A DNA stretch of 64,000 nt, from positions 58,312,673 through 58,376,672 of the forward strand of contig NC_080426.1 of assembly GCF_029873635.1 (NCBI RefSeq). The letters run 5' to 3'. Positions within the stretch are counted from its first letter, which is position 1. The number at the start of each line of letters is the position of its first letter. This document shows positions 14,265 through 51,455 of the stretch, in pieces. The translations under genes and the position numbers were made by a program. The DNA is from Malania oleifera (lineage: Eukaryota > Streptophyta > Magnoliopsida > Santalales > Ximeniaceae). Below the pieces are notes generated by a model, which was given only the letters and a program-made list of their open reading frames with translations, made no database searches and was not told the DNA's origin.

Positions 14265-14569
14265 CCTAATCTTTACTTGAGACATTTCACTCGTGAATCA
14301 AAATCTCAAATCCCATCTAAAGATTCTAAGTGTAGAATGAAATGTTTTAAATGTAAACAAATCGGTCACATTCAATTTTTTGCCCACTTCGAAATGGACA
14401 TGTAAAAATTAGAAAAGTATGGGTAGTTAAGGGTGATCCAGTCACTAACCCCTGTGGACCCAACAGAATTTGGAGACCAGCGTCAGTTACTTAGTCTATT
14501 TTGTAGGTGTGTTTGAGATCATCCTCCTCCAAGGACTGGTGGTGTAATAACCAGAGGAATTTTTCAGCA

Positions 14570-14760
14570 TCTCGTCGACGAACATAGGGGATTTGTCAAC
14601 GAGGATATAAGAGGAGCTCATCGACGAGGACAGGTTTTATCGATGAGAAAATGCCGAGAAAGGTTTTTGGGGCAGTTTAAAATTCGTCGATGAGAGAGTA
14701 AGTTCGTCGACGAAATTCCTTAAGGACTCGTCGATGAGATGACATGTCTCGTCAACGAAT
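14570..14760 (+). repeat. CGTCGACG palindrome array, eight copies (C 5' LTR)
   Basis: Eight TTCGTCGACGAA-type palindromes in various states of decay, ending just before TATAAATA at 14768. The matching array in the 3' LTR lies at 21798-21988 and differs from this one mostly by C/T and G/A changes inside the motifs. Confidence 0.75.
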
Positions 14761-15193
14761 CTGGGGCTATAAATAGTGGAAACCCGAATTTTTCAGTAGA
14801 AAACTAGCGCAAAAAACTTCCTCTCTCTCTTTAAAACGTCTCCCACTCCTTCTCTCTTCAATTCCGGGCCCATTGCTCGCCAGATTGAAGGTCTGAGGCC
14901 ACCACGACTCTTCCGACAAAATTCTCTACAAGTCTGCTAGAGTTGATCGTTGGTGGAGTTAGTTTGGAATTCATCCCAAACTCAGGGTAATGCGTTTTAT
15001 TTAGAATATGCTTTCCCTGCAGTTATAGGAAATGTTGTATGCAAGAAAATACTAATGTTTTGTTCTAGGGGATGTCGTTTTTAGGGTGTTGAGTGGAGAA
15101 CCCTGTGGGTGTAGGGCCAAAGTTCAGTGAAGGCTTTTCAGAAACTGGGTAAGGGATATATGCTATGATAGGAGATTTGCTTACGTTATCAAA

Positions 15194-15195
<2 letters not shown>

Positions 15196-15228
<33 letters not shown>
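15196..15228. repeat. (TA)n microsatellite in C 5' LTR
   Basis: A run of alternating T and A. The 3' LTR carries a longer run at about 22422-22460. Confidence 0.85.
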
Positions 15229-15232
<4 letters not shown>

Positions 15233-16106
15233 TGTATACCAGTTATTATACAGAATACGAATTTTTAAAGTATGTGTGGCCTGAGTAGATATTATTTGAT
15301 ATGGAATTTTATACAGTTTTCAATATATCAAGTTGTACAGATATAGTTAGATATTTACATATTTTATACAGAGAGAATGCGTATACATATACAGTTTTTA
15401 TTCAGAGGATTACACAGATATAACAGTATAAAGATGTTTATTCAGATCAGTATACATAGTATTTATAGAATGTTATGTTTTCCTAAATGCCATAACACTT
15501 AAAGTATACAGATAGAAAGTACAGACAGATTATACAGATAGAAAGTATAGACAGATTATACAGTTATATCATCAAGATGCTACAGATATTACAATATTTA
15601 CAGTACAGATTAATAGTGTTAGGGTTATTTTGGAAACATGATGAAAACAGTAAAAGAGTATATATGTATATATATAGTATCAGATCCCTATGAAAAATTA
15701 CAGACAGATACAGATATAGAAAAAAAATATAGAGCACGGTACCATTGCTAATACAAATAGAGTGCAACCACATATCTCAGATAGTGTGTGGGTACCGTCA
15801 ACTGTGCTCGAAGAGTATGTAGCTCCCCAGTTCGCTGGGTTGAGGGGACTAGTTTGACGAGGTAGCAGCCAGTCCCACGCCTAGGAGAGTATGTAGCTTG
15901 GTTGGGCTGAGGTAGTGTAGATTGTAGTGACTTTCCTGGAGGGCCGACCAGGTTAAGTCCCACCTACGGGCCACACAACCCTGTCATGAGGGGTCAAATC
16001 ACGAAATACAAAGTTCCAGGGATAAAAGCACAAGTTATGTATATGTATATAGTTTTACAGTATTTGATAAATATAGTATGATACTAGCAGTATGAAAAGT
16101 AGAAAA

Positions 16107-16482
16107 ATTCAGATGATACAATTATATTTTAAACTGCGAAAAATGTAAGATATGCTGTATGGACTTATCATTTTATTATAGTTCAGATGTTATTTAAAGT
16201 ATATGTATATAACTTAGTCGCCACACACTAGTAATAGTATATTTCCACTTACTGAGCATCGAATCACCCTATTATTCTAACATTTTTCAAAAAAAAAAAT
16301 TCAGATGATACAATTATGTTTTAAACTGAGAAAAATGTAAGATATGCTTTACAAACTTATCATTTTATTACAGCTCAGATGCTATTTAAAATATATGTAT
16401 ATAACTTAGTAGCCACACACTAGTAATCACATATTTCCATTTACTGAGTGTCGACTCACCCTATTATTCTAACATTTTTCAG
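16107..16482 (+). repeat. 192-bp tandem duplication unique to the C 5' LTR
   Basis: Two copies (starts 16107 and 16299) spanning the CCACACACT block, the TGAG...CTCA inverted repeat and the TTTTTCA end, separated by an A run. The 3' LTR has a single copy (about 23340-23525), so the duplication arose after insertion. Confidence 0.85.
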
Positions 16483-17052
16483 GTGAGTGAATTAGGCGAG
16501 CAGATCAGGCTCGTGGATAGATATTTCTTGATTACCTTGGTTGTAGGGTGAGTTTGTGACAGAGTTTTATATTTTTGGGGTAGATGATATTGGAAGGAAA
16601 TGTTTTATGGCTATAGTCTGTATGAAGTAAATTCTGGTATTGTACAGTAAATATGATTGTATGACTTATGTTTCCGATGCATAGGTATGATTGTATATAT
16701 ATATATAAAATTTTGAGGTCGTTACATTTATGTATTAGAGCCTAGGTTGCTAGGTTCTGCAGAATCTAGAATGTAACGGAAAACAATACCTGAATGTAGG
16801 AAAAAAAATTTAAGATTTTGTTCTGTGATCTGGATATAGGATTTCGTAGTGGTTTCTGTGTTTTTCTTGGAGTGACGATTTGAGGAAAACCATAGTACTA
16901 TCAACGAGTCGTGTAGTTGGGTCGCAGGATTGGATTTTGGGATTAGGATTAGGAGGGATGATTAATAGAGGATTTGAAGTTCTAGTTAAATGAGATAAGT
17001 CAGGTTTGCATGGGAAATAGGATTCTGAAACAGTGTTCTATATATTTGCAGG

Positions 17053-18070
17053 ATGGACCCAGGAAGCAGTAGCGCTCACGCCAATCAGGATGATGGAGCG
17101 GGTCCTTCCGGTGCAGGAGGTGGAGAGTCAAATGTTGTGCTACGTAGTGTGGCTCAGTAAGTTATGGCTGAGATAGCACGGAGCTCTAAAGAGCAGGGAG
17201 GTCCATCTCCAGTTCAGGGATGCACCATAGAAAAATTTATGAAGATGAACCTGCTAGCGTTCTCTGGAGCAGCTGACCCTGTAGTTGTAGAGAATTGGAT
17301 GCAGGAAGTGGATAAGATATTGATTGTACTTCATTGTATGGACAAAAAGAGAGTCTTATATGCTACATATAGGCTGACGGGGGAGCTCAAGAGATGGTGG
17401 TCAGCCACTAGACTATTGGAGGAGCAGAGGGCGATTCCAGTACCGATGACCTAGGCGCGATTCAGGGACGTGTTTTTCGATAGATATTATCCTGCCTCAG
17501 TCAAAGAAGCTCGAGTACAGGAGTTTCTGAGTCTGTCCCAGGGGTTGATGACTGTCCAACAGTATGCTGTAAGATTTATTGAGCTATCGTATTTCTGCCC
17601 CCATAATGTTCCAGACGAAGTAAAGAAGGCGAGAATATTCGAGAGAAACCCAAGGTGAGATATTTACAGGCAGGTGGCAGTACTAAGGATCTAGGATTTC
17701 TCAAAGTTGGTCGTCAGGGCTATTATAGCAGAGGAAAGTTTGCTGAGGGAGACTGTGATGTAGAGTTAGAAGAAGAGGACTGCACCCTCGAGTTTTCAGG
17801 TGGGTCCTAGTCAAGGCCCTTGGAGAGGAGGTATATCTGACAGACTCCAGATACAGATGGTAGAGCACAGTGGATTTCAGGGTGGACAACTTCCTACCAT
17901 TTGTCCTAGATGCGGACGGAGACACCCAGGTGAGTGCCAGCTGGGGGAGAATATCTATTATCATTTTGGGAAACCTAGCCATATGGCTCGATTGTGTCAG
18001 ATGCCATCGAATTATGCACCGGCTCCTAGGCCGTTTCCAGGTGGATATCAGGCGCCCCACGGAGGCCAGT
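17053..18070 (+). pseudogene. Chromovirus C gag region
   Basis: The gag region of element C, starting MDPGSSSAHANQ. A retrotransposon capsid segment (FSGAADPVVVENWMQEVDKIL...RWW) is followed near 17900-17990 by a CPRCGRRHPGEC/HFGKPSHMARLC nucleocapsid region. Its product would form the particle shell. The reading frame is broken. It resembles the short gag remnant at 27594 in element E, which ties E to the same lineage. Confidence 0.82.
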
Positions 18071-18099
18071 AGAGGAATACTGCGCCGACAAGGGTCTAT

Positions 18100-21000
18100 G
18101 TGTTGACGTCGGGTGATGCTAAAATGGCTGGAGACATGGTCACAGGTACCATTATTGCTTTATCGTATAAAGTTATTATTTTATTTGATACAAGCGCCAC
18201 CCTCTCTTTTATATCGGTGGGGTATGTTCGAATAATTGGGGTAGAGGCCCAGCTATTAGATGTAGAATTATCTATGGGTACGTTGATGGGATCAGTGGTA
18301 AAATGCAAGACGGTGCTTCAGAATTTCCCAATGAATGTTCATGAGAGAGTACTACCCGCAGATCTCATGGCTCTAGATATGTAGGGGTTTGATGTGATAT
18401 TAGGCATGGATTGGCTAGCAACTCATCACACCAGTATTGATTGCCATCAGAAAGAAGTGATTTTCAGACCCCCGAGTGAGCAAGAATATAGATTCGTAGG
18501 TTCACGTGTACGTGCCTCACCACAACTGGTGTCAGCTATCCAGGTGAGCAGATTGCTACTGGGCGGTTTCCAGGGGTATGTCACATATATAAAAGAATTG
18601 CCAAAAGAAGAATTGAGACAAGCCGATATAGCCGTGGTGAGAGAATTTCCAAATGTCTTTCCAAAAGAATTGCCTAGTTTGCTGCCTGACCGTGAGATTG
18701 AGTTTACTATAGATTTATTTCCGGGATCTGCACCAGTATCTAAAGCACCGTATCGTATGGCTCCAGTCGAGGTGAAAGAATTGAAAGATCAATTACAGGA
18801 ATTGCTTGACAAAGGGTTTATCAAGCCCAGTGTGTCGCCCTAGGGAGCGCCAGTTTTGTTCATGAAAAAGAAAGATGGAACCATGAGATTGTACATCGAT
18901 TATAGGGAGATAAAAAAACTAACAGTCAAGAATAAATATCCTCTCCCTAGGATCAACGATTTATTTGATCAGCTTCAGGGGACCCGGGTTTATTCTAAAA
19001 TTGACCTGTGATTGGGTTACCATCAGGTGAAGGTTAGAGAAGAAGATATATCGAAGACCGCATTCCATACCAGATATGGGCATTACGAGTTCTTAGTGAT
19101 GTCGTTTGGGTTGACTAACGCACCTGCAATATTTATGAACTTAATGAATTGGGTGTTCCATCAATACTTATATCAGTTTGTGGTTGTGTTCATTGATGAT
19201 ATACTGGTTTATTCGAGAAGTTTTGAGGAGCACGAGTATCATTTGAGATTGGTGTTGCAGGTATTAAGGGAAAGAAAATTGTATGCAAAATTCAAGAAGT
19301 GTGAGTTTTGGTTAAAGCAGGTTACCTTTCTTAACCATGTGATATCTGAAGCGAGAGTATCAATTGATCCAAGTAAAATAGAAGCAGTACTGAATTGGGA
19401 AAGGCCAGGAAATGTTCAAGAAGTCAGAACTTTTCTAGGATTGGCAGGCTATTACCGACGCTTCGTGGATGGCTTCTCCAGGTTGTCTGGTCCGTTAACA
19501 CGACTTACGAGGAAAAAAATGAAGTTTGATTGGACCAATGACTGTAAGTAGAGTTTTTTAGGAGTTAAAGCGACGGTTAGTTTCAACTCCAACACTGGTT
19601 ATTCCTTCAAGGGAGGACGGGTTTGTGACAGTGATGCGTCCCTGAAGGAACCTAGGTGCGTATTGATGCAGCACGGTAGAGTTATTGTGTATGCTTCTAG
19701 ACAGCTTAAAAAGTATAAGAAAAATTATCCTATCTATGATTTAGAATTGGCTGCAGTGGTGTACGCTCTCAAGATCTAGAGGCATTACCTATATGGTGGA
19801 AAGTGCAAGATTTTCACGGATCACAAGAACCTGAAATATTTCTTCACCCAGAAAGAGCTGAATATGAGAAAAAGAAGGTGGCTAGAACTCATTAAAGACT
19901 ATGACTGCACCATTAGTTACCACAAAGGGAAAGTGAATATGGTGGCAGATGCTCTGAGCAGGAAATCAGTGGGACCCGCATTGGCAGCTATGGAGATTCA
20001 GCACTCAATTCTGGTGGATTTGGAGCAACTTAGTATAGAGTTAATAGAGGAGAGTCCTCAAGCAGTTATTGCCAGTCTAGTGGTTCAGCTTACACTATAC
20101 GAGAGGATTAAAACAACTTAGGGTAATGATGCAGAGTTGGCAGAGGTAATGGTAAGAGTACGAGATAGTCAGGGTGAGAAATTCAGCATATCAGATGACA
20201 GAGCGTTGCGTTTTTGTACTAGGCTTTGTGTTCCTGTAGATATTGAGATCAGGAGAACTATATTAGAGGAGGCTTATAGATCCCTATACACCATACATCC
20301 AGGTAACACTAAAATGTACAGGGATCTGCAAGAGTACTTCTGGTGAAGCGGAATGAAGAGGGAGATAGCCGAGTTCGTTTAACAATGCTTGACACGCCCA
20401 CAGGTTAAGGTTGAGCACCAGAGACCAGCAGGGCAGTTGCAGCCGTTGTTTATTCTAGAATGGAAATGGGATCACGTTTCAATGGATTTCATTAGGGGTT
20501 ACCGTCAGTGCATCAGGGATTGAATGCGATTTGGGAGGTTGTTGATTGTTTGAGGAAGACCGCTCATTTCATCCCTATTAAAGTCGGTTATTCCATGAAC
20601 AGATTAGTGAAAATATATATATTTAGGAGATAGTTCGCATTCATAGAGTACCAGTATCCATAGTCTTAGACTGAGATCCTTGGTATACTTCACAATTTTG
20701 GAAAAGTTTTCAGGAGGCTATGGGTACACAGTTAGCTTTTAGCACTGCGTTTCACCCTCAAATAGATAGGCAGACCAAGAGGACAATCCAGACTTTGGAA
20801 GATATGCTTCGTGTGTGCGTGCTGGATTTTGGGGGTAGCTGGACCCAGTTTTTACCACTAGTTAAATTTGCCTATAATAATAGTTATCATACTAGTATCG
20901 ATATGACACCTTACGAGGCATTATATGGTAGGAGATGTTGTTCTCCTCTCTTTTAGGATGAAGTCGGTCAAAGGTGAGTGTTAGGTCCAGAAATTGTGCA

Positions 21001-21510
21001 GCAGGCGTACGACAAAGTCCGACTGATTAAAGAAAGAACGTGCAGAGTCAACAAAAAAGCTACGTAGACACTCACCATCGAGAAGTAGATTTTGATGTGG
21101 GAGATCGAGTATTTTTTAAGATAGATCCTCTGAAAGGAGTTATGAGGTTTGGAAAGAAGGGCAAGTTGAACCCTAGGTATATTGGCTATTTTCAGATACT
21201 AAAGAGAATAGGGTCAATTGCCTATAGGTTAGCTTTGCCGCCAGCTTTGGCTCGAATTCATGACGTGTTTCATGTTACTATGTTAAGGAAATACGTCTCA
21301 AACCCATCCCATATAATCAGCTATGTAGAGATAGAATTCAAGGATTCACTAGCTTATGAAGAGACGCCAGTACAGATTTTAGATAGAAAGACACAAGAAC
21401 TGCGTACTAAAGAAATTTAGCTAGTGTAGATTTTGTGGAGGAACCATGCCATGGAAGAAGCCTCATGGGAACTCGAGGATGAAATTAAAAAGAAATGCCC
21501 ACATTTGTTC
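18100..21510 (+). pseudogene. Chromovirus C pol region (PR, RT, RNase H, IN, chromodomain-like tail)
   Basis: Polyprotein region in Gypsy order. Protease with LFDTSATLSFIS near 18180. Reverse transcriptase from about 18590, with [16 protein letters not shown] and FIDDILVYS near 19195. RNase H near 19670-19960, with TDHKNLKYF and ADALSRK. Integrase near 20270-20960, with HPGNTKMYRDL and [13 protein letters not shown] tail near 21400-21510 (LWRNHAMEEASWE) looks like a chromodomain and would steer insertion to particular chromatin. The region is broken at several places and not functional. Confidence 0.85.
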
Positions 21511-21768
21511 CAAGAGTAATCAGGTAATGTAAATAGTTAGGTAATGTTTCTTTTGTAGGTACATGTACTATTTAGTTAGTAAGTAGTTTTTAATTTTATT
21601 TGTGTAATCTCCCAGAACTTAGATTGTAACCATGGTATCCCTCCGCCATAAGTGAGGGTAAGTAATAAAAATAAGTAGATCCTTTACCTTTACAAGATGG
21701 TAGAGTGTATAATGGTGTTCAATCTAGATAGTAAATTTCAAGGACGAAATTTTATAAGGAGAGCGGAA

Positions 21769-22420
21769 TGTAGTAACCCAAGGAATTTTTCAACATCTCG
21801 TCAATGAACACAGGGGATTCATCGACGAAGATATAAGAGGAGCTCGTCGACGAGGATAGGATTCGTCAATGAGAAAATACCGAGAAAGGTTTTTGGGGCA
21901 ATTTGACATTTGTCGACGAGAGAGGAAGTTCGTCGACGAAATTCCTTAAGGACTTGTCGATGAGATGGCGTGTCTCGTCGACAAATCCGGGGCTATAAAT
22001 AGTGGAAACCTAGATTTTTCAGCAGAAAACTAGTGCAAAAAACTTCCTCCCTTTCTCTAAAACGTCTCCCACTCCTTCTCTCTTCGATTCTAGGCCCGTT
22101 GCCCGCCGAATTGAAGATCTGAGGCCACCATGATGCTTCTGACAAAATTCTCTACAAGTCTACTAGAGATGATCGTTGGTGGAGTTAGTTTGAAATTTGT
22201 CCCAAACTCAGGGTAAGGTGTTTTATTTAGAATATGTTTTCCCTATAGTTATAGGAAATGTTGTATGCAGCAGAAAAATACTGATGTTTTGTTATAGGGG
22301 ATGTCATTTTCAGGGTGTTAAGTGGAGAACCCTGCGGGTGTAGGGCCAGAGTTCAGTGAAGGCTTTTAAGAAACTGGGTAAGGGAAATATGTTATGCTAG
22401 GAGATTTGCTTACGTTATCA

Positions 22421-22463
<43 letters not shown>

Positions 22464-23778
22464 TGTATACCAGTTATTATACATAATACAAATTTTTAAA
22501 GTATGTGTGGCCTAAGTAGATATTATTTGATATGGAGTTTTATATAGTTTTTCAGTATATCAAGTTGTACAAATATAGTTAGATATTTAAAGATTTTATA
22601 CAGACAGAATGTGTATACATATACAGTTTTTATTCAAATGATTACATAGATATAACAGTATAAAGATGTTTATTCAGATCAGTATACATAGTATTTACTA
22701 AATGTTATGTTTTCCTAAATGCCATAACACTCAGAGTATATAGATAGAAAGTACATACATATTATACGGATAGAAAGTACAGACAGATTATATAGTTGTA
22801 GCATCAAGATGCTACAAATATTACAGTATTTACAGTACAGATTAATAGTGTTATGGTTATTTTGGAAACATGATGAAAACAGTAAAAGAGTATAAATGTA
22901 TATATATAGTATTAGATCACTGTGAAAAGATTACAGATAGATACAGATACAGAATATAGAGCACAGTACCGTTGCTAACACAGATAGAGTGCAACCACAT
23001 ATCTCCGATAGTGTGTGGGTATCGTCAACTGTGCTCGGAGAGTATGTTGCTCCCCAGTTCGCTAGGTTGAGGGGGCCAGTTTGACAAGGTAGCAGCCAGT
23101 CCCGTGCCTAGGAGATTATGTAGTTTGGCCGGACAGAGGTAGTGTAGAGTATAGTGACTTTCCTGGAGGGCCGACCAGGTTAAGTCCCGCCTACGAGCCG
23201 CACAATCCTGTCATACAGGGTCAAATCATGACATATAGAGTTTTAAGGATAAAAGCACAAGTTATGTATATGTATACAGTTTTACAGTATTTGATAAATA
23301 TAGTATGGTACTAGCAGTATGAAAAGTAAAAAAAAAAAAAAAATTCAAATGATACAATTATGTTTTAAACTGTGAAAAATGTAAGATATGCTTTACATAC
23401 TTATCATTTTATTACAACTCAGATGTTATTTAAAGTATATGTACATAACTTAGTCACTACACACTAGTAATAGCATATTTCCACTTACTGAGCGTCGACT
23501 CACCCTATTGTTCTAACATTTTTTAGGTGAGCCAGTTAGGCGAGCAGATCAGGCTCACAGATAGAGATTTCTTGATTACCCTAGTTGTAGGGTGAGTTTG
23601 TAACAGAGTTTTGTATTTTTGGGGTATATGATACTGGAAGGAAATGTTTTATGACTATAGTCTATATGAACTAAATTCTAGTATTGTATAGTAAATATGA
23701 TTGTATGATTTATGTTTCCGTTGCATAGGTATGATTTTATATATATTAAAAAAATGATATAATTTCGAGGTCGTTACA
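21769..23778 (+). repeat. 3' LTR of chromovirus C
   Basis: 2,010 bp, TGTAGTAACCC...GGTCGTTACA, TATAAATA at 21994-22001, palindrome array at 21798-21988, inverted repeat TGAGCGTCGACTCA at 23489-23502. Confidence 0.93.
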
Positions 23779-23783
23779 GGTGG

Positions 23784-24487
23784 TGCCTGGATAGCAGGTG
23801 CTCACGGCACATGATCGGCGACAAGGCAAAATTTGCGTCAATCATTCCCAAGGATGGAGGGTATGTGACGTTTGGCGACAATGCAAAGAGACGCATCATC
23901 GGCGTGGGTAAGGTCGGTAAGGATCCTTCCTTAGTTATTGATAATGTTCTATTAGTTGATAGCTTGAAGCATAGCTTATTGAGCATAATTCAATTGTGCG
24001 ATGAAGGATATAAGGTATCATTTGAAAATGATAAATGCATAGTTGAAAGTAAATCAAATCACAAAGTTTTTACTGCAGATTTCCATGAAAATGTATACAC
24101 TACTACTTTTCATAACTTAGATTTACAAAAAGTAACTTGCTTTTCTGCAATAAATGAAGCTAGTTGGTTATGACATAGGCGATTAGGACACCCTAGTATG
24201 GATTTATTGTCAAAGATAGTAAGAAAAGATTTAGTGAAAGGCTTGCCTAAAACACCATTTGTGAAAGATAAAAATTGTGATGCATGTCAAATGGGTAAGC
24301 AAACAAAATCTAACTTTAAGAAAAAGAAATTTATATCTACCACTAGACCACTTGAAATGCTTCACTTAGATTTGTTTGGTCCTAATTCTGTGCAAAGTTT
24401 TGGTAGTAAATCATATGCTTTTGTCATTGTTGATGGCTTTTCTACATGGGTGTTATTTCTCTCACATAAAAATGAATCATGTGAATA
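23784..24487 (+). pseudogene. Copia B protease and integrase N-terminus
   Basis: Copia polyprotein sequence right of element C: the end of the protease core (SRCSRHMIGD), a GAG-pre-integrase segment with HRRLGHPSM...LPKTPF and CDACQMGKQTKS, then the integrase core start (LEMLHLDLFGP). Integrase inserts the cDNA into chromosomes. The region is broken. It is cut off from the rest of the integrase by element E at 24660. Confidence 0.82.
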
Positions 24488-24671
24488 GTTTACTAAGTTT
24501 TACAGGAGAATTCAAAATGAAAAAGGCTATAAGATAACTCATATAAGAAGTGATAGAGGCATTGAATTTAAAAATGAAGGCAAAGAACACTATTGTGACC
24601 TAAAGGGCATATCACACAACTTTTCTGCACTTAGGACCTCTCAACAAAATGGTGTAGTATGTGATGACCCA

Positions 24672-24713
<42 letters not shown>

Positions 24714-25018
24714 TAAAGTACAATAATAATAAAATAATAAAAATAGTCATTAAGTTAATATCAATACAGAAGTGTTTTTCTGTAGGATCCTTGATTCCAT
24801 GTTTGATGCCTAAGAAAGACCTTGTCTTAGCGAGTGCTCAGAGACCATTGCGGCTCAGTCGCTCCCTGGAGGTCGGCCTGGTCAAAATGGAATTTCATAG
24901 GATAAACAGGATAGATACTGTTTGTATACGTAAATAAATATATATACATAAAATAGTATTTTGACAGACATAATTTGTAGAAATACATAATAAGATGATA
25001 ATAATATAGGTATCATAT

Positions 25019-25358
25019 GTGGGGCCCACAAGACTATGTGGGGTCCACATGAGTCCCGGAGCCACAAGACACTGTTTATATACGTAAATGAGTACATAAA
25101 ACAATGTTTTAACTGATATAATTTGAAGAAATATATGATAAAATAATAATAATATAGGTATCCTATGCGGGGCCCACAAGACTGTGTGGGGCCCACATGA
25201 GTCCCGAAACCGTATGAAGGTTTTCACAAGTCTCAAAACTATGCAGGATGCATAAAATCGTATAAGAGTTATTGGAATTACGTACGATCCATTTGGGTCT
25301 CGAAATTGTGTGCGGCCCACAAGACTACATGGGGCCCACAAGACCATGTGGGGCCCAC
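25019..25358. promoter_or_regulatory. Cluster of GTGGGGCCCAC sites in E 5' LTR
   Basis: Six GGGGCCCAC or GGGGTCCAC sites (25019-25029, 25037-25049, 25167-25177, 25186-25196, 25329-25339, 25348-25358) upstream of the TATA box. GTGGGNCCCAC matches the known binding pattern of plant TCP factors. The 3' LTR repeats the cluster 5,565 bp downstream. Regulation is inferred, not shown. Confidence 0.6.
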
Positions 25359-25426
25359 ATGAGTTTTTAAAATTTAAATTTAATTCTTGTTCAAAATAAA
25401 ATAAAATAAAATAAATACTAAATATA

Positions 25427-25750
25427 GTTTAAAATTAATAACAATGATAATAATAATGATTAAGAAAAATAATAAAATAATAAAATAATTAGTTAGGTAA
25501 TGGATTAATTAATAAGGTAAGTAATTAATTAAAAATTTATTTAGTGAGAATGGTGGCAAGCACTCCCAAATGGCCTCCACTCAAGTTTAAAATTAATAAC
25601 AATGATAATAATAATGATAATAATGATTAAGAAAAATAATAAAATAATAAAATAATTAGTTAGGTAATGGATTAATTAATTAGGTAAGTAATTAATTAAA
25701 AATTTATTTAGTGGGAATGGTGGCAAGCACTCCCAAATAGCCTCCACTCA
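25427..25750 (+). repeat. 158-bp tandem duplication in E 5' LTR
   Basis: Two copies (starts 25427 and 25585) of an AT-rich unit ending in AATGGTGGCAAGCACTCCC. Both LTRs carry it (also about 30993-31315), so it predates this insertion. Confidence 0.9.
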
Positions 25751-27593
25751 ACCCATACCTTGCCCATCCCTTGCCCATTCTTTAATTTTTAAAATTATAA
25801 TTTCACCCATCTCCCCACACTTTTATAAATTCTATTTCTTCCCCAAAATTTTCCTATAAATAGGGAGCTCTCAACCTTCATTTTTCACAACAATTTTCCA
25901 AGGAAGAGAAGGATTAGTGAGTGAAAGAATTTGTGGTGGAGAGAGAATTTTTGAATAAATTCTTAATCACCCACTTTTTCCGATCTCATTTCTTAAAGAT
26001 AATTATTGTGTTCGTAGCACACGGTAAAAGAAGAAGGTAAGTAAATTTTGATTATGTTAGTTTCTTTTTATTTTAAATTCATACCCGAGTTTATTTTGTA
26101 TGTAAATTTTAATTATGTTACTTAGTTCCACAAAATTTCCATGAGTTTATTTTTACGCATATTTAATTATACCAGTTCTATCTTTAATATACTTGCATCT
26201 ATTTTTGGGTTAAGAAATGTTCCAATCCCCTCGGGTAAATTTTCAGCATTTCTTTCTATTCAAAAATAAAATTATATATATTTTTAACACAAAAATTGTG
26301 TGTCATGAGTTTATTTCTACGTTACATTTTTTTTTATGTAAATATGAGTAAAGATGAGATTTTCACGATATTATTTTAAATTGCATAAATGATAATAAGA
26401 TGATTTTCAAACCCCTTATGGCAACGAAAGTTCAAAGTTACAGATGCTCGGTACCGCAGCTTAAAGTTTATACGGATCAGAGTGCACCCACACTGTTTAC
26501 AGAGTGGTTATTTATGTTAGTGGATTTCTCCTGAGTGCACACCTGGTTTAAGTCCAGGATTTAATAAGGAAAATCTCACTTAAAGTTTACGTACGTTGAT
26601 TTAGTTTGGTCGGCCAGCCAGCTAAGTCCAGTCTTCGGACCGCACAACCCAATCATGGGGGTAAACATGACTTATGGCAAAAAGGCCTAAGGGTGGTTTT
26701 TATAATATATGTTTATACATATTTAATTACGTATACAAGTTACTGATGATTTGAAGGAAAAGTATAAGTTTACGTGAAAAGGATCATTCTGGTGCTTAAA
26801 TGACGATCTAAGGAAAACGTATAAGGAAAAGTATATGTATGTTTATCATTAAATGTTTTTACAGTTTTAAAGTTAAAAGTTTAATTTAGCAGTTATAATA
26901 TATGATTATAAAAATTTACTGTTGAAATTGATGACAAAACTTTTATGCAGAAATTTTTAAATTTATATTTATTCTAAAAGCAGTCTTGAAGTTATATTAT
27001 TAAATATTGTTTTACGAAATTCTTTAAAAGCTCATTTTAGCCACACACTAATAATAATCTTATTTACTTACTGAGCGTCGTCTCACCCCAATCATATTTT
27101 ATTTCAGATAACTCTGAAGGACATGTCGGAAATCAGGCTTAGCAAGCATGCGGGTGGGGATTAGGAAAAATAAAGATTAATTAGAAACATTAGTATGATT
27201 TCAGATATTTACGTTTGTGTAATTTTCTTCTTTTGAAATAACTGATTGTAACATGAATAATTAGCGCTCTTGTTTGAATAAAATTTGAGTTTATTTGCTT
27301 CCGCTGTAAATCAGTAGTAAAAAGTTAATATCCTAGGCCCCTCGGGGTCGGGGTGTTACATTTGGTATCAGAGCAATAGGTTATAGGTTCTGTAGACTTT
27401 AAAGAAATAATTTTACTAGAGCATAGGATATAGGTTCTGCATAATCTAATATATAAATTTTATCAGAGCATAGGTATAAAATATGATTTGGGTAGGATTG
27501 GGTAGTTTAGAATATTTATTTTAGTTTGTTATATTATTATGCGTTAATAATAGATTTATGATTTTAAAATAACATTTGATCATTATTTAAGAA

Positions 27594-27659
27594 TGGATCC
27601 TAAAGATAGTAGCATTGGAGGAAATGAGATTTACGTGAAGGCTCCCAAGGACAGGTAAT
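27594..27659 (+). pseudogene. Gag N-terminal remnant of element E
   Basis: ATG-initiated 21-codon frame MDPKDSSIGG... ending in TAA, placed about 230 bases after the primer-binding site. It resembles the start of the gag of chromovirus C (MDPGSSS). Only this stub of the normal coding region remains. Confidence 0.6.
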
Positions 27660-28476
27660 AATTATAAATTCTCTAAGAAAAATAGTACTATTATTGAAGA
27701 CACGTTAATTAATTTAAATATATTATTTATGTTTGTAGAAACACGTACCCATATTGATGATTCATAATTAATTGTCAAATGCAATTAATAATTTAAATTT
27801 TTTTTATATATAAATATAATAATAATATTTGAGATTTAATTATTTTTACTGTTGTTATTTTCACTAAATTTATAAGAAATAACCTATTAGACCCTACTGA
27901 ATTTAGAAGTGCTACACATACAAATAGATATGAACAAACGGTCTATTATGAAATCTGAATTTACCCAAAATTTTTTTGCATGTATAAGTTGGATATGAAT
28001 ATGTATTTTTACATTACATATTCAGTTATCAACAAAACATTCAAGCTTAATTTAGGAATATATATTTTGACAAAATCTTTAATTTTTATTTTGTATTAGT
28101 ATATAAGGAATTAAATATCATTTAAATATTACTTATTATATTTAAATTCAATATATATATAATCCCTTAGCATGTGCAAGTTAAATATGTATATCTATTT
28201 TTTTTCCCATTACATATTCAATTTCCATCAAGTATCCAAGTTTAATTTAGGAGTACAAATTTTGATGAAATCTTTAATTTTGTATAAATTTATAAAAGTT
28301 AATACAACTTAAAATTTTCTCTAAAAAAATATATATATATTTTTTAATGAAAGCAATATAAAAATTTACTAATTTCCTTCAAATAACTAACCAATGTCAA
28401 ATCATCAATCGGCTAAACATGCCCAACATTTATTTGATCTAATAATAATAATAATAATAATACTAATGTTAATGGA

Positions 28477-28513
<37 letters not shown>

Positions 28514-28529
28514 AGGGGTACTCTTGTAG
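27660..28529. other. AT-rich interior of element E, no gene seen
   Basis: Strongly AT-rich sequence with short A, T and AT runs (for example 28483-28513) and a small ATA microsatellite near 28441. No coding or structured element recognised. It may be a remnant of the flank of the captured gene. Confidence 0.6.
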
Positions 28530-28712
28530 TTATAAAAAAAAGAAAAAAAAAAAAGAAAAAAAAAAGGGGCCTCATGGGTGGAAATCATCGGCTATAGCTC
28601 ACTTACCCCCGAAGCAAGGTCAGGGCATGAGACCACTTGGGCGTAGTGGGGATTCGAACCCGTGATCACATGGATGCACGGCCGGTTCCTTACCACTAGG
28701 CCACCCACCCAA
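28530..28712 (-). mobile_element. tRNA-derived SINE inside element E
   Basis: On the minus strand a tRNA-like head carries an A box (TGGCCTAGTGGTAAGG) and a B box (GGGTTCGAATCCC, at 28648-28661 on the plus strand), the internal pol III promoter. A body of about 110 bp follows and ends in a T-rich tail, seen as A-rich sequence at 28533-28565. It is too long and unstructured past the B box to be a tRNA gene. Confidence 0.7.
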
Positions 28713-28794
28713 GTAGTGACATAAGGATGAAATTAATTATAGTTAACACATTAATAAAGATGTAGAAATATAAAAAAGAACCTTGAGTCCGCAA

Positions 28795-29105
28795 ATTTTG
28801 CAATACATGTCGCTTGCTCGATTTCCGCGACACATATCGCTCTCCCTCGATTTTTGAAAAATGCATCACTCGAGGCACGCGTCGCACCCTCTCTCGGTTC
28901 TCGCGACACGGGTCGATCTCCCTCAATTTGTGCAAAAAGCGTTAATTGATATCTGTGACACGTGTCACCCTCTCTCGGTTCTCACGACACACATCGTTTT
29001 CCCTCGATTTATGCAAAACACGTTGCTCGATATCCGTGACACTCGTCGCTCTCCCTCAAATCTCGTAGCACACGTCGCTCTCTCTCGATTTCCACAACAC
29101 GCGGC
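28795..29105 (+). repeat. Degenerate ~30-bp repeat array upstream of the homeobox ORF
   Basis: About nine imperfect copies of a unit like CGTGACACNNGTCGCTCTCC followed by CTCGATTT. It includes a G-box-like GACACGTGTC at about 28957. The array ends about 10 bp before the TATA box, so it is a candidate promoter array. Confidence 0.7.
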
Positions 29106-29108
29106 CAT

Positions 29109-29125
29109 CCCCTTATAAAAAGGGG
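29109..29125 (+). promoter_or_regulatory. TATA box of the homeobox ORF
   Basis: TATAAAAA at 29114-29121 within the near-palindrome CCCCTTATAAAAAGGGG. The expected transcription start near 29145-29150 gives a leader of about 90 nt before the ATG at 29241. Confidence 0.6.
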
Positions 29126-29240
29126 TCTGCCCTTCTCAAACTCTAAACATCACAACTTTCTATCATCTTGAACAATCACATTTCGGTTTGTAGTGATTAG
29201 CTCTTCCCAATTTGTCTCTTAGTTGTCTCATTACTCAAAA

Positions 29241-29930
29241 ATGTTGCCAAATCACCCAACTCCTCAAGCTACTGAGAGCAGCACTAAATCGCCAGTCCAA
29301 CGATGGAAACCTAGCAAGGCACAGCTGGAGATTTTAGAGGAGGCCTTCCGCAGCAGTCAAGGGGAACTCCCTTCTGTGGAGCGAACTATCTTACTTGCAG
29401 CACAACTTCGAAGGTATGGTCCAATCGAGTCGAGGAATGTGCGCTTTTGGTTTGAGAACCGTAGGCGTAGGCAGGAATCAATTGGAGAAGCCACTACTTC
29501 AACTACTGCCCCATCAATTCTCCATATTACCTCCTCCGCCACTACTGATCCGAGCAGTGCCCCTGCCATTCTTCCAACCCTCTTCCCTATCGAGAATATC
29601 CCGACTGTGAAACTTACAACTAATATCTCACCAATGAGTCATATCCCTTACAATGGTAATATCGCAGTCACCACACTAAGGGTTTCGGATAATGCTGGCC
29701 TACTTCACCATTTCAAGGAAATTCGATTCGCAATGAGACTCACATACGGGCCACCAATAACTCGGGAAGAGAGCAACTCTTCCTCCTTCGCCGAACAAAT
29801 GGGCGTTCTCTCCCTTTTTCCGACCCAAGCCGGTGACATTCGAAGAGGTCTCTGCCAAGAAAGGACTCTGGAAGTTAGCAGTGACACCGCTAGTACTTCA
29901 ACATATGTTGACGTTGATCTTAGGCTCTAA
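29241..29930 (+). CDS. WUSCHEL-related homeobox (WOX-type) protein carried in an LTR element
   Basis: A 229-residue intronless ORF. Residues about 21-79 form a WOX-type homeodomain (RWKPSKAQLEILEEAF...QLRRYGPIESRNVRFWFENRRRRQE) with the long loop typical of the family. The recognition helix reads WFEN where WFQN is normal, so residue 50 of the homeodomain is E instead of Q. This residue contacts DNA. A WUS-box-like LSLFPT lies near residues 190-195. The C-terminus ends in DVDLRL, like the EAR repressor motif of WUSCHEL. Family members are nuclear transcription factors controlling stem-cell and organ identity. Arabidopsis WUS has introns; their absence fits capture of a spliced copy. It is complete from ATG to stop and has its own TATA box. 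The in-frame upstream TTG at 29223 was not used. Whether it is expressed is unknown. Confidence 0.8.
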   Translation: MLPNHPTPQATESSTKSPVQRWKPSKAQLEILEEAFRSSQGELPSVERTILLAAQLRRYGPIESRNVRFWFENRRRRQESIGEATTSTTAPSILHITSSATTDPSSAPAILPTLFPIENIPTVKLTTNISPMSHIPYNGNIAVTTLRVSDNAGLLHHFKEIRFAMRLTYGPPITREESNSSSFAEQMGVLSLFPTQAGDIRRGLCQERTLEVSSDTASTSTYVDVDLRL

Positions 29931-30224
29931 AGGCCAGATTTCATTTTATTTTTATAGGACATGTATAATATATATATATATATATATATATAATTATCCT
30001 TTTCCACATCTTCTGAATTTCTTTTCCATTTCAACCACTATTAGACCGACGATTCACACTTCAATTCCCAAAATAAAATACTTCGTCAAATTGACCCTCA
30101 ATCTATTCTAAGACTTAATTAAATCATTAATCAATTTACTCTTTCTAATAGCGCAAACCAATTATACAGTACTCATTTTAAATTAGCAAATTTCGAGGAC
30201 GAAATTTTTATAAGGAGGGGAGAT
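29931..30224 (+). other. 3' end of element E interior with polypurine tract
   Basis: After the homeobox stop lie a (TA)n run (29970-29991) and AT-rich DNA. Then comes TTTCGAGGACGAAATTTTTA and the purine tract TAAGGAGGGGAGA that primes plus-strand synthesis. The same block precedes the 3' LTR of chromovirus C, again linking the two lineages. Confidence 0.8.
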
Positions 30225-30236
30225 TGTGATGACCCA

Positions 30237-30276
<40 letters not shown>

Positions 30277-32924
30277 TAAAGTACAATAATAATAAAATAA
30301 TAAAAATAGTCATTAAGTTAATATCAATACAGAAGTGTTTTTTCTGTAGGATCCTTGATTCCATGTTTGATGCCTAAGAAAGACCTTGTCTTAGCGAGTG
30401 CTCAGAGACCATTGCGGCTCAGTCGCTCCCTGGAGGTCGGCCTGGTCAAAATGGAATTTCATAGGATAAACAGGATAGATACTGTTTGTATACGTAAATA
30501 AGTATATATACATAAAATAGTATTTTGACAGACATAATTTGTAGAAATACATAATAAGATGATAATAATATAGGTATCATATGTGGGGCCCACAAGACTA
30601 TGTGGGGTCCACATGAGTCCCGGAGCCACAAGACACTGTTTATATACGTAAATGAGTACATAAAACAATGTTTTAACTGATATAATTTGAAGAAATATAT
30701 GATAAAATAATAATAATATAGGTATCCTATGCGGGGCCCACAAGACTGTGTGGGGCCCACATGAGTCCCGAAACCGTATGAAGGTTTTCACAAGTCTCAA
30801 AACTATGCAGGATGCATAAAATCGTATAAGAGTTATTGGAATTACGTACGATCCATTTGGGTCTCGAAATTGTGTGCGGCCCACAAGACTACATGGGGCC
30901 CACAAGACCATGTGGGGCCCACATGAGTTTTTAAAATTTAAATTTAATTCTTGTTCAAAAATAAAATAAAATAAAATAAATACTAAATATAGTTTAAAAT
31001 TAATAACAATGATAATAATAATGATTAAGAAAAATAATAAAATAATAAAATAATTAGTTAGGTAATGGATTAATTAATAAGGTAAGTAATTAATTAAAAA
31101 TTTATTTAGTGAGAATGGTGGCAAGCACTCCCAAATGGCCTCCACTCAAGTTTAAAATTAATAACAATGATAATAATAATGATAATAATGATTAAGAAAA
31201 ATAATAAAATAATAAAATAATTAGTTAGGTAATGGATTAATTAATTAGGTAAGTAATTAATTAAAAATTTATTTAGTGGGAATGGTGGCAAGCACTCCCA
31301 AATAGCCTCCACTCAACCCATACCTTGCCCATCCCTTGCCCATTCTTTAATTTTTAAAATTATAATTTCACCCATCTCCCCACACTTTTATAAATTCTAT
31401 TTCTTCCCCAAAATTTTCCTATAAATAGGGAGCTCTCAACCTTCATTTTTCACAACAATTTTCCAAGGAAGAGAAGGATTAGTGAGTGAAAGAATTTGTG
31501 GTGGAGAGAGAATTTTTGAATAAATTCTTAATCACCCACTTTTTCCGATCTCATTTCTTAAAGATAATTATTGTGTTCGTAGCACACGGTAAAAGAAGAA
31601 GGTAAGTAAATTTTGATTATGTTAGTTTCTTTTTATTTTAAATTCATACCTGAGTTTATTTTGTACGTAAATTTTAATTATGTTACTTAGTTCCACAAAA
31701 TTTCCATGAGTTTATTTGTACGCATATTTAATTATACCAGTTCTATCTTTAATATATTTGCATCTATTTTTGGGTTAAAAAATGTTCCAATCCCCTCGGG
31801 TAAATTTTCAGCATTTCTTTCTATTCAAAAATGAAATTATATATATTTTTAACACAAAAATTGTGTGGCATGAGTTTATTTCTACGTTACATTTTTTTTA
31901 TGTAAATATGAGTAAAGATGAGATTTTCACGATATTATTTTAAATTGCATAAATGATAATAAGATGATTTTCAAACCCCTTATGGCAACGAAAGTTCAAA
32001 GTTACAGATGCTCGGTACTGCAGCTTAAAGTTTATACGGATCAGAGTGCACCCACACTGTTTACAGAGTGGTTATTTATGTTAGTGGATTTCTCCTGAGT
32101 GCACACCTGGTTTAAGTCCAGGATTTAATAAGGAAAATCTCACTTAAAGTTTACGTACGTTGATTTAGTTTGGTCGGCCAGCCAGCTAAGTCCGGTCTTC
32201 GGACCGCACAACCCAGTCATGGGGGTAAACATGACTTATGGCAAAAAGGCCTAAGGGTGGTTTTTATAATATATGTTTATACATATTTAATTACGTATAC
32301 AAGTTACTGATGATTTGAAGGAAAAGTATAAGTTTACGTGAAAAGAATCATTCTAGTGCTTAAATGACGATCTAAGGAAAACGTATAAGGAAAAGTATAT
32401 GTATGTTTATCATTAAATGTTTTTACAGTTTTAAAGTTAAAAGTTTAATTTAGCAGTTATAATATATGATTATAAAAATTTACTGTTGAAATTGATGACA
32501 AAAGTTTTATGCAGAAATTTTTAAATTTATATTTATTCTAAAAGCAGTCTTGAAGTTATATTATTAAATATTGTTTTACGAAATTCTTTAAAAGCTCATT
32601 TTAGCCACACACTAATAATAATCTTATTTACTTACTGAGCGTCGTCTCACCCCAATCATATTTTATTTCAGATAACTCTGAAGGACATGTCGGAAATCAG
32701 GCTTAGCAAGCATGCGGGTGGGGATTAGAAAAAATAAAGATTAATTAGAAACATTAGTATGATTTCAGATATTTACGTTTGTGTAATTTTCTTCTTTTGA
32801 AATAACTGATTGTAACATGAATAATTAGCGCTCTTGTTTGAATAAAATTTGAGTTTATTTGCTTCCGCTGTAAATCAGTAGTAAAAAGTTAATATCCCAG
32901 GCCCCTCGGGGTCGGGGTGTTACA
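30225..32924 (+). repeat. 3' LTR of element E
   Basis: 2,700 bp, nearly identical to the 5' LTR. TATAAATA at 31420-31427, inverted repeat TGAGCGTCGTCTCA at 32636-32649. Ends GGGGTGTTACA followed by the TAGTA duplication. Confidence 0.95.
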
Positions 32925-32929
32925 TAGTA

Positions 32930-33345
32930 GAAAGGAAGAATAGGTCATTACAAGAAATGGGTAGGACCATGTTGAATGAGCATAAGTTACCTAAATATTT
33001 TTGGGCTGAGACCATAAATACTACTTGTTATGCCATGAATAGGGTGTTCATTAGACCATCTCTAAATAAAACCCCTCATGAATTGTGGAACAATCATAGA
33101 CCTAATATTTCCTATTTTCATGTTTTTGGTTGTAAATGCTTTGTGCTTAGGGATAATGAACATCTAGGGAAATTTGATTCTAAATTTGATGAAGGCATTT
33201 TCCTAGGCTATGCTCTTAATAGTAAAGCATATAGAGTCTTTAATAAAAGAACATTGACTGTAATTGAATCTATTCATGTCATATTTAATGAATCTAATTC
33301 ATTTTCTAAGAAAGATGATGAAGACGATGTTGATATAAGAAAATG
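32930..33345 (+). pseudogene. Copia B integrase C-terminal part
   Basis: Copia integrase sequence resuming right of element E, with LPKYFWAETINTTCY, NKTPHELWNNHRPN and FVLRDNEHLGKFDSK. This is the end of the catalytic core and the conserved C-terminal block. It is part of the broken Copia B. Confidence 0.85.
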
Positions 33346-33499
33346 ATTAGACAAGTTATCTATTGAAAACAATGCAAGTGAAAAATCAGAAATAAATGAT
33401 AAATCACCTGAATATAATGAAAATGAAAAGAAATTCAGGAGTTGCCTAGAGATTGGAAATTTATTAGGAACCACCCTATAGATCAAATCATAGGTGAAC

Positions 33500-49289: not shown

Positions 49290-49964
49290 TGATGAGATCA
49301 AGGATATTTAAAAATAATGAAAAAAAAATATGTAAGTTCAAAATTATTTTCTCCTCTTAATGAATATTAGTTGTGAGCATATATTATGTATATCTCACAT
49401 TTTTAAATTATTTGATTTTAGAGGATAATGGAGAGTGAAGATAATTCAAAATTAGAAATATTTTTAAAATTTTAAAATTTAGTATAAAGGATAATGGGAG
49501 GTCAGGAAGGTAATGAAAAATTATAATTTTTTTAAAATTTAAAATAAAAAATAATATGTGAAAATAGTTATATACTTACAATTTGTAAATTGTAAATATA
49601 AAATAAGTTGAAAATTGTGGGATTTTGGGAAGAGAACTTTAAAAAAAAAAAAAAAAAGAAGATTAAAACTGTCTGTACAGCCCTATACAGCATAGATCAA
49701 AATCCACATAATTAAATTTTAAATGAATATTAATAGCTTTAAAATAAATTTTATTTTTTGTAATAAAAATTAGTGAGAGCATTTTTTGTAATAAAAAAAA
49801 GAGTGAGAGCGCTTCATCTAATAATGATAAATCTATCAAAAAATGTTACATCCACACCAGCCAAAAGGGCACTCCACGCCAGATCACCGCCTTTCGCACT
49901 CACACTTTTTTTCTTTTTTCTTTTTTTTTTTAAAAATCACACTCTCTCCTTCTCTCTCTTCTGT
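49290..49964. other. Intergenic, upstream region of the protease gene
   Basis: AT-rich single-copy-looking DNA with A and T runs and no coding features. The last part holds CT-rich tracts (49941-49962) just upstream of the TATA box. Confidence 0.6.
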
Positions 49965-49972
49965 TATTTATA
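49965..49972 (+). promoter_or_regulatory. TATA box of the aspartic protease gene
   Basis: TATTTATA, 47 bp before the ATG at 50019, preceded by a pyrimidine tract. This implies a very short leader of about 15-25 nt. Confidence 0.55.
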
Positions 49973-50018
49973 CTCGCTAGTCCAACTCTTTCCCCTTAAC
50001 CTCCATAGCCTCTCTGCC

Positions 50019-51455
50019 ATGGAAGCTGAACCCAAATCCGTTCTCTTCTCCTTCTTCTTCCTCATTTCCCTCTGTGCAGGTCTCCGTTACCAGACTCTGA
50101 GTCCAGGGACTCTCCCCATCCCATCCAAGCTCAACCCCGATGTCTCATGGACCGAATCCGAGACCGTAACCCTACCTGATTCTGCCCAAGCGGAGACCCA
50201 AACCCAATCCACCCTCGCCCTCTCCCTCCGCCTCGAGCACATTGATGCCTTGGCCTCCGACCTCACCGCCGAGTCCCTCTTCAAGCTCAGACTCGACCGC
50301 GATGCTATCCGGGTCGGATCCCTCCTCGCTAAGGCCGCCGGCGTCCCCTTCAAACAAACCCCCGGCGAACACTTCAGTAGCTCCATCATCTCCGGCCTCG
50401 CGCAAGGCAGCGGCGAGTACTTCACTCGCTTGGGCATCGGAACTCCTCCGACGTTCGAGTACCTGGTTCTCGATACCGGATCCGACATTAATTGGATCCA
50501 GTGTAAACCCTGCGCCAGATGTTACAATCAGACGGATCGGCTCTTCGATCCGGCTAAGTCTCATACCTACGCCGCAGTCCCTTGTAGGTCAGCACAATGT
50601 CAAAAGCTGGACAGCTCCGGATGTGATCGGCAGAAGCAAAGGTGCCTCTATCAGGTGTCCTACGGCGACGGGTCGTTCACCGTCGGCGTGCTCTCCACTG
50701 AAACGCTGACGTTCCGGCGGACGAAGATTGCGAATGTGATGATTGGGTGCGGCCACGACAACGAGGGATTGTTCGTCGGCGCCGCTGGATTGTTGGGGCT
50801 CGGCCAGGGGAAACTTTCTTTCCCGGCCCAAGCTGGCGCCCAGTTCAAGCAAAAGTTCTCGTACTGCTTGGTGGACCGTTCGGCGTCTTCGAAGCCGTCT
50901 TCGCTGTTATTTGGCGAATCGGCGGTGTCGCACAGGGCCCGCTATACTCCTCTAGCCCCAAACAAAAAGCTCGACACCTTCTACTACGTCAACCTCCTCG
51001 GAATCAGCGTAGGCGGGTCTCCAGTCCGGGCAATTACTCCGTCGCTGTTCAAGCTCGACCAGATTGGAAACGGAGGAGTCATAATCGACTCGGGGACCTC
51101 GGTGACCCGACTCACCATGCCGGCTTACACCGCCCTGCGCGACGAATTCAAGAAAAAAACGAAGAATCTGAAACTGACAGACGGATTCTCTCTGTTCGAT
51201 ACGTGCTACGACCTGAGGGGGAAGGCGGAGGTAAAGGTGCCGACGGTGGTATTGCATTTCGAGAACAAGGTGGACATGTCGCTGCCGGCGACGAATTACC
51301 TGATTCCGGTGGACAACGAGGGGACTTTCTGCTTCGCCTTCGCCGGAACGGCGAGCGGGTTGTCGATAATTGGGAATATACAGCAGCAGGGATTCCGGGT
51401 CATGTTCGATTTGGCGAAATCCATGGTCGGGTTTTATTCGGGCGGGTGCACATGA
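50019..51455 (+). CDS. A1-family aspartic protease, APF2-like
   Basis: An intact 478-residue ORF without introns. A hydrophobic signal peptide (about residues 8-21, SVLFSFFFLISLC) indicates secretion. A propeptide-like stretch runs to about 120. The TAXi-N lobe starts with GSGEYFTRLGIGTPP and has catalytic DTGS at 152-155; the second lobe has DSGT at 357-360. Cysteine-rich CKPCARCYNQ (162-171) is the plant-specific insert pattern of atypical (nepenthesin/CND41-like) proteases. The C-terminus NIQQQGFRVMFDLAKSMVGF is highly conserved. It closely resembles Arabidopsis APF2 (At1g01300) from memory, which is also intronless. ATG at 50019 was chosen because it starts the signal peptide; the frame is open for 82 codons upstream but the TATA box lies inside that stretch. 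It is GC-rich compared with its surroundings. The only clear host gene here. Confidence 0.93.
   Translation: MEAEPKSVLFSFFFLISLCAGLRYQTLSPGTLPIPSKLNPDVSWTESETVTLPDSAQAETQTQSTLALSLRLEHIDALASDLTAESLFKLRLDRDAIRVGSLLAKAAGVPFKQTPGEHFSSSIISGLAQGSGEYFTRLGIGTPPTFEYLVLDTGSDINWIQCKPCARCYNQTDRLFDPAKSHTYAAVPCRSAQCQKLDSSGCDRQKQRCLYQVSYGDGSFTVGVLSTETLTFRRTKIANVMIGCGHDNEGLFVGAAGLLGLGQGKLSFPAQAGAQFKQKFSYCLVDRSASSKPSSLLFGESAVSHRARYTPLAPNKKLDTFYYVNLLGISVGGSPVRAITPSLFKLDQIGNGGVIIDSGTSVTRLTMPAYTALRDEFKKKTKNLKLTDGFSLFDTCYDLRGKAEVKVPTVVLHFENKVDMSLPATNYLIPVDNEGTFCFAFAGTASGLSIIGNIQQQGFRVMFDLAKSMVGFYSGGCT

Follow-up and report, generated by a model that had tools for sequence, protein, structure and literature searches.

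An LTR retrotransposon with a WOX-type reading frame

How does a reading frame for a WUSCHEL-type homeodomain protein come to lie between the two long terminal repeats (LTRs) of a retrotransposon, and has it become a working part of that element? The question is raised by a stretch of 64,000 nucleotides from Malania oleifera (NCBI RefSeq assembly GCF_029873635.1, contig NC_080426.1, positions 58,312,673 to 58,376,672), in the following called the window, in which positions 24660-32924 constitute an element that we refer to as E. E belongs to a family of hundreds of copies, whose sampled young members mostly carry an open frame and whose old members hold the same cassette, mostly broken. The best explanation, to which we assign a probability of about 0.6, is an old capture of a WOX-type coding copy by a non-autonomous LTR family, which has kept it since as its only substantial gene.

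A preliminary description of this DNA had reported two 2.7-kb LTRs differing by less than 1%, a TAGTA target-site duplication, a primer-binding site, a polypurine tract, a gag stub and the absence of pol. Apart from the gag stub, in the place of which there is only a leader frame of 21 codons without Pfam match, these features were all recovered (Table 1). The LTRs differ by 16 substitutions and 4 gap runs over 2698 aligned sites (0.6%; Kimura two-parameter distance, K2P, 0.0060), corresponding to an insertion 0.23-0.43 million years ago at assumed rates of 1.3e-8 and 7e-9. The primer site is presumably of the initiator tRNA-Met type. Pol is absent, because stop-to-stop frames of at least 150 codons within E are limited to the open reading frame (ORF) of the homeodomain protein and one minus-strand frame per LTR. 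With its paired LTRs, target-site duplication, primer site and polypurine tract, and without pol, E is a young non-autonomous LTR retrotransposon. It was inserted within the integrase gene of a copia element, as the empty site without E reads as one continuous frame (SQQNGV/VERKNRS, the slash marking the place of E); the gag_pre-integrs and rve scores of this interrupted copia lie under the Pfam cut-offs.

The LTR had also been described as rich in TCP sites. Indeed, GGNCCCAC, which we take to be a TCP-type motif, matches it eight times over both strands against 0.02 times in mononucleotide shuffles, but several of these matches fall in tandem copies of one unit.

Table 1. Features of element E and of the copia element that it interrupts (positions in the window)
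Feature	Position	Strand	Remark
Interrupted copia element, left part	23811..24659	+	Pol_BBD, gag_pre-integrs, start of rve
Left target-site duplication	24655..24659	.	TAGTA
5' LTR	24660..27360	+	2701 bp; TG...CA; tandem GGGGCCCACA units
Primer-binding site	27363..27374	+	TGGTATCAGAGC; two bases beyond the 5' LTR end
Leader ORF	27593..27658	+	21 codons
Cassette (ORF and upstream region)	28660..30060	+	diverged block relative to L032/L033
Repeats 5' of the WOX-type ORF	28790..29110	+	81-bp period at 28885-29042
TATA box-like sequence	29114..29119	+	TATAAA
WOX-type homeodomain ORF	29241..29930	+	open, 229 codons
Homeodomain	29298..29486	+	residues 20-82; WFEN in place of WFQN
WUS-box-like motif	29808..29828	+	LSLFPTQ, residues 190-196
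C-terminal EAR-like motif	29916..29927	+	DLRL, residues 226-229
Polypurine tract	30212..30223	+	AAGGAGGGGAGA
3' LTR	30225..32924	+	2700 bp
Right target-site duplication	32925..32929	.	TAGTA
Interrupted copia element, right part	32930..33346	+	SH3-like retroviral domain

Copies in the genome

The Malania oleifera assembly (1494.3 Mb in 510 scaffolds) was searched with several queries. The window ORF as protein query gave 1017 first-look candidates. Each of the 150 that were scored spans residues 2-225 or more, with an identity of 83-100%; by a count over the listing, in-frame stops occur in 27 and are absent from 123. These long relatives rule out that the ORF is open by chance. Twelve copies including that of the window, 97-100% alike, were designated group 1, and the copies at 83-88% group 2 and its kin. 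A diverged Malania protein as query returned 2318 candidates, and many of the 150 scored have stops. In addition, a 26-base WUS-box pattern with at most three mismatches was found at 512 places in the genome, and its reversed control at none. That the element spreads WOX-type copies, as had been proposed, is therefore borne out in the hundreds.

To sample elements independently of the ORF, the leader (27361-27680) was used as query, giving 1175 candidates, of which 40 were scored, all at 98-100%. A scored ORF lies about 1.9 kb downstream in 33 of these 40 (by eye, 27 free of stops, among them L028 without ATG, and 6 with one stop). Six of the other seven have frameshifted or partial ORFs, and one has no ORF in the 1.3 kb read. 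The ORF or its remnants are thus present in 39 of the 40 scored elements.

Among 5.8 billion database proteins (824 candidates), the sole match at E <= 0.01 was LOC131144967 (P0001), again from Malania oleifera. It maps to C1:79445174-79445680 at 99% identity and is a broken copy of the element ORF, as the listed protein stops at a premature stop in the DNA. P0001 had at first sight no WUS box, but in the DNA this box is present directly past that stop. Likewise, a 1069-codon open frame at L052 is due to a run of N.

Two pairs of ORFs, L017/L018 on C6 and L020/L021 on C7, lie 5.6-5.8 kb apart on one strand, a spacing expected of tandem LTR-internal-LTR-internal-LTR arrays that arise by recombination.

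The encoded protein and its relation to WOX genes

By profile score, predicted fold and length of the loop between helices 2 and 3, the ORF encodes a WOX-type homeodomain. It matches the Pfam Homeodomain profile with an E-value of 1.6e-9, has the WOX-type helix 2-3 insertion, and its best matches are to WOX proteins; in a sequence search of the PDB, STENOFOLIA (2.6e-10) and WUSCHEL (6.3e-9) come first and the next homeodomain follows at 0.22. In the AlphaFold model, the mean predicted local distance difference test score (pLDDT) of the homeodomain is 83-92 per ten residues and the remainder is poor. The 11 best PDB matches of this model in Foldseek are all WUS or STENOFOLIA homeodomain chains. 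Weak strands after the homeodomain, a candidate for a second folded domain, are mostly gone in a model built from family copies alone, and this candidate was discarded.

The two motifs at the end of the ORF, which had been noted together with its intactness, recur in further copies and across subfamilies. LSLFPTQ resembles the WUS box and DLRL the EAR motif. With respect to the presumed WUS-box consensus TLxLFPxx, of which TLxLFP forms were encountered in this analysis, the window ORF has LxLFP without the leading T; the P is replaced by S in 11 of 29 old copies and by L in 4 of 29.

The residues by which WUS reads bases are given as R38, Q89, N90 and R94 (PMC7203112). At these sites the window ORF has Arg (R21), Glu, Asn (N73) and Arg (R77), so that three of four are kept and the full set is not, owing to the Glu at the Q89 position. 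Of 59 element copies 58 have this Glu, whereas all 119 other proteins that were retrieved have Gln. The last base-reading Arg is, by eye, Lys in many old copies.

Several results weigh against a simple assignment to the WOX genes. Firstly, percent identity alone fails to separate WOX from non-WOX: the homeodomain is 31-42% identical to the WOX proteins compared (including the Malania WUS, L064-L068, L070 and L071), and for two non-WOX stretches, aligned over a smaller number of residues, the values are 36.5 and 37.8%. Secondly, a homeodomain tree of 31 sequences puts the element copies on one long branch outside all WOX clades, separated from the WOX proteins by the two non-WOX stretches, which join in between with supports of 88-89. 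Thirdly, the fold result is not independent, because the alignment behind the model contained WOX sequences, and an attempt to model the protein with nothing but family copies was unsuccessful (mean pLDDT 35). As the copies do not group with WOX proteins in the tree, where a long-branch artefact is possible, we use the label 'WOX-type' and do not speak of a WOX gene of a given clade. Altogether, a WOX affinity is supported by the profile scores, by the loop between helices 2 and 3 and by the end motifs, and the tree is indecisive. The homeodomain proposed in the preliminary description hence holds as to profile, PDB matches and loop, but not as to grouping. That description had also looked to a WOX phylogeny for the parent gene, and no WOX parent with which the homeodomain groups was found in this way.

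A recent capture from a living WOX parent is ruled out by the low identity to the WOX genes compared and the missing clade placement. The two end motifs suggest a parent in the WUS clade. Malania WUS (P0043) maps to three separate places on the genome (residues 1-149 at 100% identity, 148-186 and 183-331), so that two introns separate its homeodomain from its WUS box. No intron interrupts the element ORF, which would fit a capture of spliced RNA.

Two further observations concern WUS and WOX sequences elsewhere in this genome. WUSCHEL exon-like pieces form clusters near the WUS gene on C1 (44567324-44824424) and on C13 (48345803-48527417), with C435 as a further location; they are mostly 75-87% identical to Malania WUS, often with stops, and are apparently broken WUS duplicates, separate from the element family. 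L070 (C2:15438800-15439140) has a WOX-like homeodomain, WRPQQAQIKLLKSLF...NVFCWFQNRRSKK, that the tree places at a distance from the remaining WOX genes of Malania.

Selection on the reading frame

If the ORF has been kept as a gene of the family, its codons should bear traces of constraint. Compared with five other copies, the window ORF differs by indels of whole codons only (3; 3; 9, 30 and 3; 9, 30 and 3; 9, 33, 3 and 3 bases); three of these copies were chosen as stop-free old ones, and other old copies have private frameshifts. In the flanks of the same five copies indel lengths are mixed (1, 2, 4, 5, 25, 29 and others). Stops are present in 0 of 12 copies of group 1, 1 of 16 of group 2 and 26 of 29 old copies (L052 was excluded from codon counts for its N). 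Accumulated stops, which had been named as the mark of a dead passenger, are thus common in old copies but rare in the youngest.

The ratio of nonsynonymous to synonymous substitution rates (dN/dS) was estimated by the Nei-Gojobori method (NG86). Between groups 1 and 2 a net dS of 0.196 and dN of 0.051 give a ratio of 0.26 (bootstrap 0.16-0.40), against 0.49 (0.31-0.79) for group 1 and 0.61 (0.37-1.06) for group 2 versus the old copies. Within the three groups it is 0.70, 0.15 and 0.50. Because NG86 ignores transition bias, private mutations, each seen in a single one of 29 old copies, served as calibration. These comprise 74 synonymous, 154 nonsynonymous and 12 stop mutations, i.e. a ratio of nonsynonymous to synonymous counts (N/S) of 2.08. 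In a test of the McDonald-Kreitman type, differences between groups 1 and 2 at sites at least 90% alike within each amount to 25 synonymous and 22 nonsynonymous, an N/S of 0.88 (Fisher p=0.006).

On the other side, the following results weigh against a lasting constraint. Because protein similarity was the criterion for picking group members, dN is lowered within the groups. When only strictly fixed differences between groups 1 and 2 are taken, the counts are 14 to 16 (p=0.09), and another computation gave p 0.018-0.061. The N/S of old copies versus group 1 (1.86) and versus group 2 (2.29) is like that of private mutations and looks neutral. Variants common to at least three or at least five old copies have an N/S of 1.60 and 1.46 (p=0.13 and 0.15 versus private). 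Finally, only one of 20 exact WUS-box loci, L092, is fully open; these loci were taken by eye from 65 exact places, outside the protein-search lists, a choice that favours older, broken copies. The private-mutation calibration consequently weakens the claim of constraint on the older branch. Judged from codons, constraint in the recent past is supported and older branches look neutral. A dN/dS comparison across copies, as envisaged in the preliminary description, accordingly shows a low ratio between the young subfamilies only.

These results also bear on whether the cassette is a neutral passenger, carried along by a few successful master elements, with young copies intact merely through youth. 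The near-neutral N/S from old to young and of shared old variants, the stops in nearly all old copies and the strict fixed test are all in its favour. However, it accounts poorly for the N/S between young subfamilies, for the net dN/dS, for the whole-codon indels between copies and for the recurrence of motifs at both ends of the ORF across subfamilies. We therefore consider it rather unlikely, though a serious competitor of the old capture with retention.

History of the cassette

Sixty loci were read with 1.5-kb flanks (L001-L030 and L034-L063). In each of them at least one flank of the ORF aligns to E, and in 58 the alignment extends into LTR sequence (exceptions L023 and L048). Three further copies, for which 8.5-8.8 kb were read, have the layout of E: L031 (LTR K2P 0.0029, target-site duplication GGGTT), L033 (0.0040, GTACC) and L032, whose 5' LTR start was not found in the stretch read. 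The cassette includes a TATA box-like sequence: all 30 young copies compared, and 27 of 30 old ones, have TATAAA within 160 bases 5' of the ORF. Old copies match E at 83-93% over the 160 bases immediately preceding the ORF and at 65-84% over the repeats above them. As an observation apart, LTR sequence of L063 (94.7% to 26192-27360) nearly abuts the ORF cassette and the 1.6-kb leader is absent, possibly a shorter variant.

The cassette has a history separate from that of the rest of the element. In 200-base steps, E and the group 2 copies L032 and L033 are 94-100% alike outside 28660-30060 (deletions apart) and 82-95% alike within it. In the ORF tree, from which L077 was left out, the group 1 cassette is closest to the copies L076, L082 and L090 (816 bases of each read), with support of 100. 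The simplest reading of these alignments is that the cassette was exchanged between element lineages. A separate history could also arise by repeated capture, in which a selected host gene donates fresh cassettes and the codon constraint belongs to that gene. We regard this as improbable, given that the nearest cassette relatives are other element copies and that all 60 loci read with flanks have element sequence outside the ORF (other places were not inspected singly). That a host WUSCHEL-like gene was hit by insertions, or that annotation misleads us, is scarcely credible: although one copy, LOC131144967, appears among the NCBI proteins, it is one of hundreds with a DNA stop exactly at the listed protein's end, the window copy, L031 and L033 each have paired LTRs and a target duplication, and structure and copy number together rule out a host gene with nested insertions.

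Therefore, of the preliminary view that a young element captured a WOX gene, the WOX-type gene in a young LTR element stands, but the cassette is an old one of a large family and not a recent capture.

A possible role of the protein

Under the old capture that we prefer, a WUS-clade gene would have entered the family by way of spliced RNA, and the element would most probably be moved by the proteins of an autonomous gypsy-type element. The cassette may be transcribed from its own predicted TATA promoter. Its product is predicted to be a nuclear DNA-binding repressor of altered specificity (Gln to Glu), in which the WUS-box and EAR-like motifs could recruit co-repressors. The most likely targets would be the element's own copies and LTRs or host stem-cell genes, and elements might in consequence be active in the meristem or in founder cells of the germ line.

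In plants, germ cells are set aside late and derive from shoot meristems, which WUSCHEL maintains. In this light, the family may have evolved a stem-cell transcription factor of its own, i.e. a WUSCHEL-derived repressor with re-tuned DNA binding, kept by selection at the level of the element, which would bring new insertions into the germ line by directing either the activity of elements or the stem-cell programme of the host. We put this forward as a tentative and on balance doubtful extension. With a WUSCHEL-type protein, bearing both motifs of repressor type, in hundreds of element copies, transposon manipulation of stem cells to reach the next generation becomes directly testable.

Comparison with known systems

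LTR elements with parts of host genes are known. Bs1 of maize, according to the review PMC13317346, is an LTR element with segments of three host genes, none full-length. It resembles E in carrying host coding sequence; in E, by contrast, a single ORF encodes the homeodomain together with the two end motifs, and the family numbers hundreds of copies. According to the same review, no transduced segment in plants other than Rider/SUN of tomato has been characterised experimentally. There too an LTR element moves a developmental host gene, whereas in E the gene is a standing part of the family and has diverged along with it. In rice and sorghum, some LTR-captured genes are expressed or under purifying selection (PMC3726574). 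That work likewise concerns captured genes but is a survey of many captures, and the terms 'homeobox', 'WUSCHEL' and 'transcription factor' are absent from its main text. A limited search of the open-access literature retrieved no report of a WOX gene in an LTR retrotransposon. Compared with WUSCHEL and WOX proteins themselves, the element ORF shares the homeodomain with long helix 2-3 loop, the WUS-box-like motif and the EAR-like end, and differs in its low homeodomain identity, Glu for Gln, position outside the WOX clades, lack of introns and multicopy state.

What is new is that a family of hundreds of copies has a complete regulator-type ORF as its permanent gene. A genomic parasite seems to have incorporated one type of plant master regulator. 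In practical terms, gene-family surveys of Malania oleifera can mistake element copies for host genes, as is illustrated by one NCBI protein (LOC131144967).

Helper element and neighbouring features

An autonomous helper was not found; 39 of the 40 best leader matches (of 1175) carry the WOX-type ORF or remnants, and no genome-wide LTR or pol search was made. The preliminary description had proposed mobilisation by Tekay-like chromoviruses such as element C, the neighbour of E in the window. What E shares with C is a 34-base purine-tract context, and among the 60 best pieces listed the two LTRs match only in AT-repeat stretches. Element C (14543-23778) is an older gypsy element; its LTRs are alike at about 89% of sites, and it contains fragments of a protease and of a reverse transcriptase.

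Within E, the minus strand of 28560-28715 looks like a reversed tRNA-derived short interspersed element, presumably so by its characteristic words. Rfam has no match at gathering thresholds in 24600-33000 and ARAGORN no tRNA in the whole window. The stretch is present in L031-L033 and absent from the alignments of several old copies. Further downstream in the window, positions 49767-51455 hold a 562-codon open frame that by eye is aspartic protease-like.

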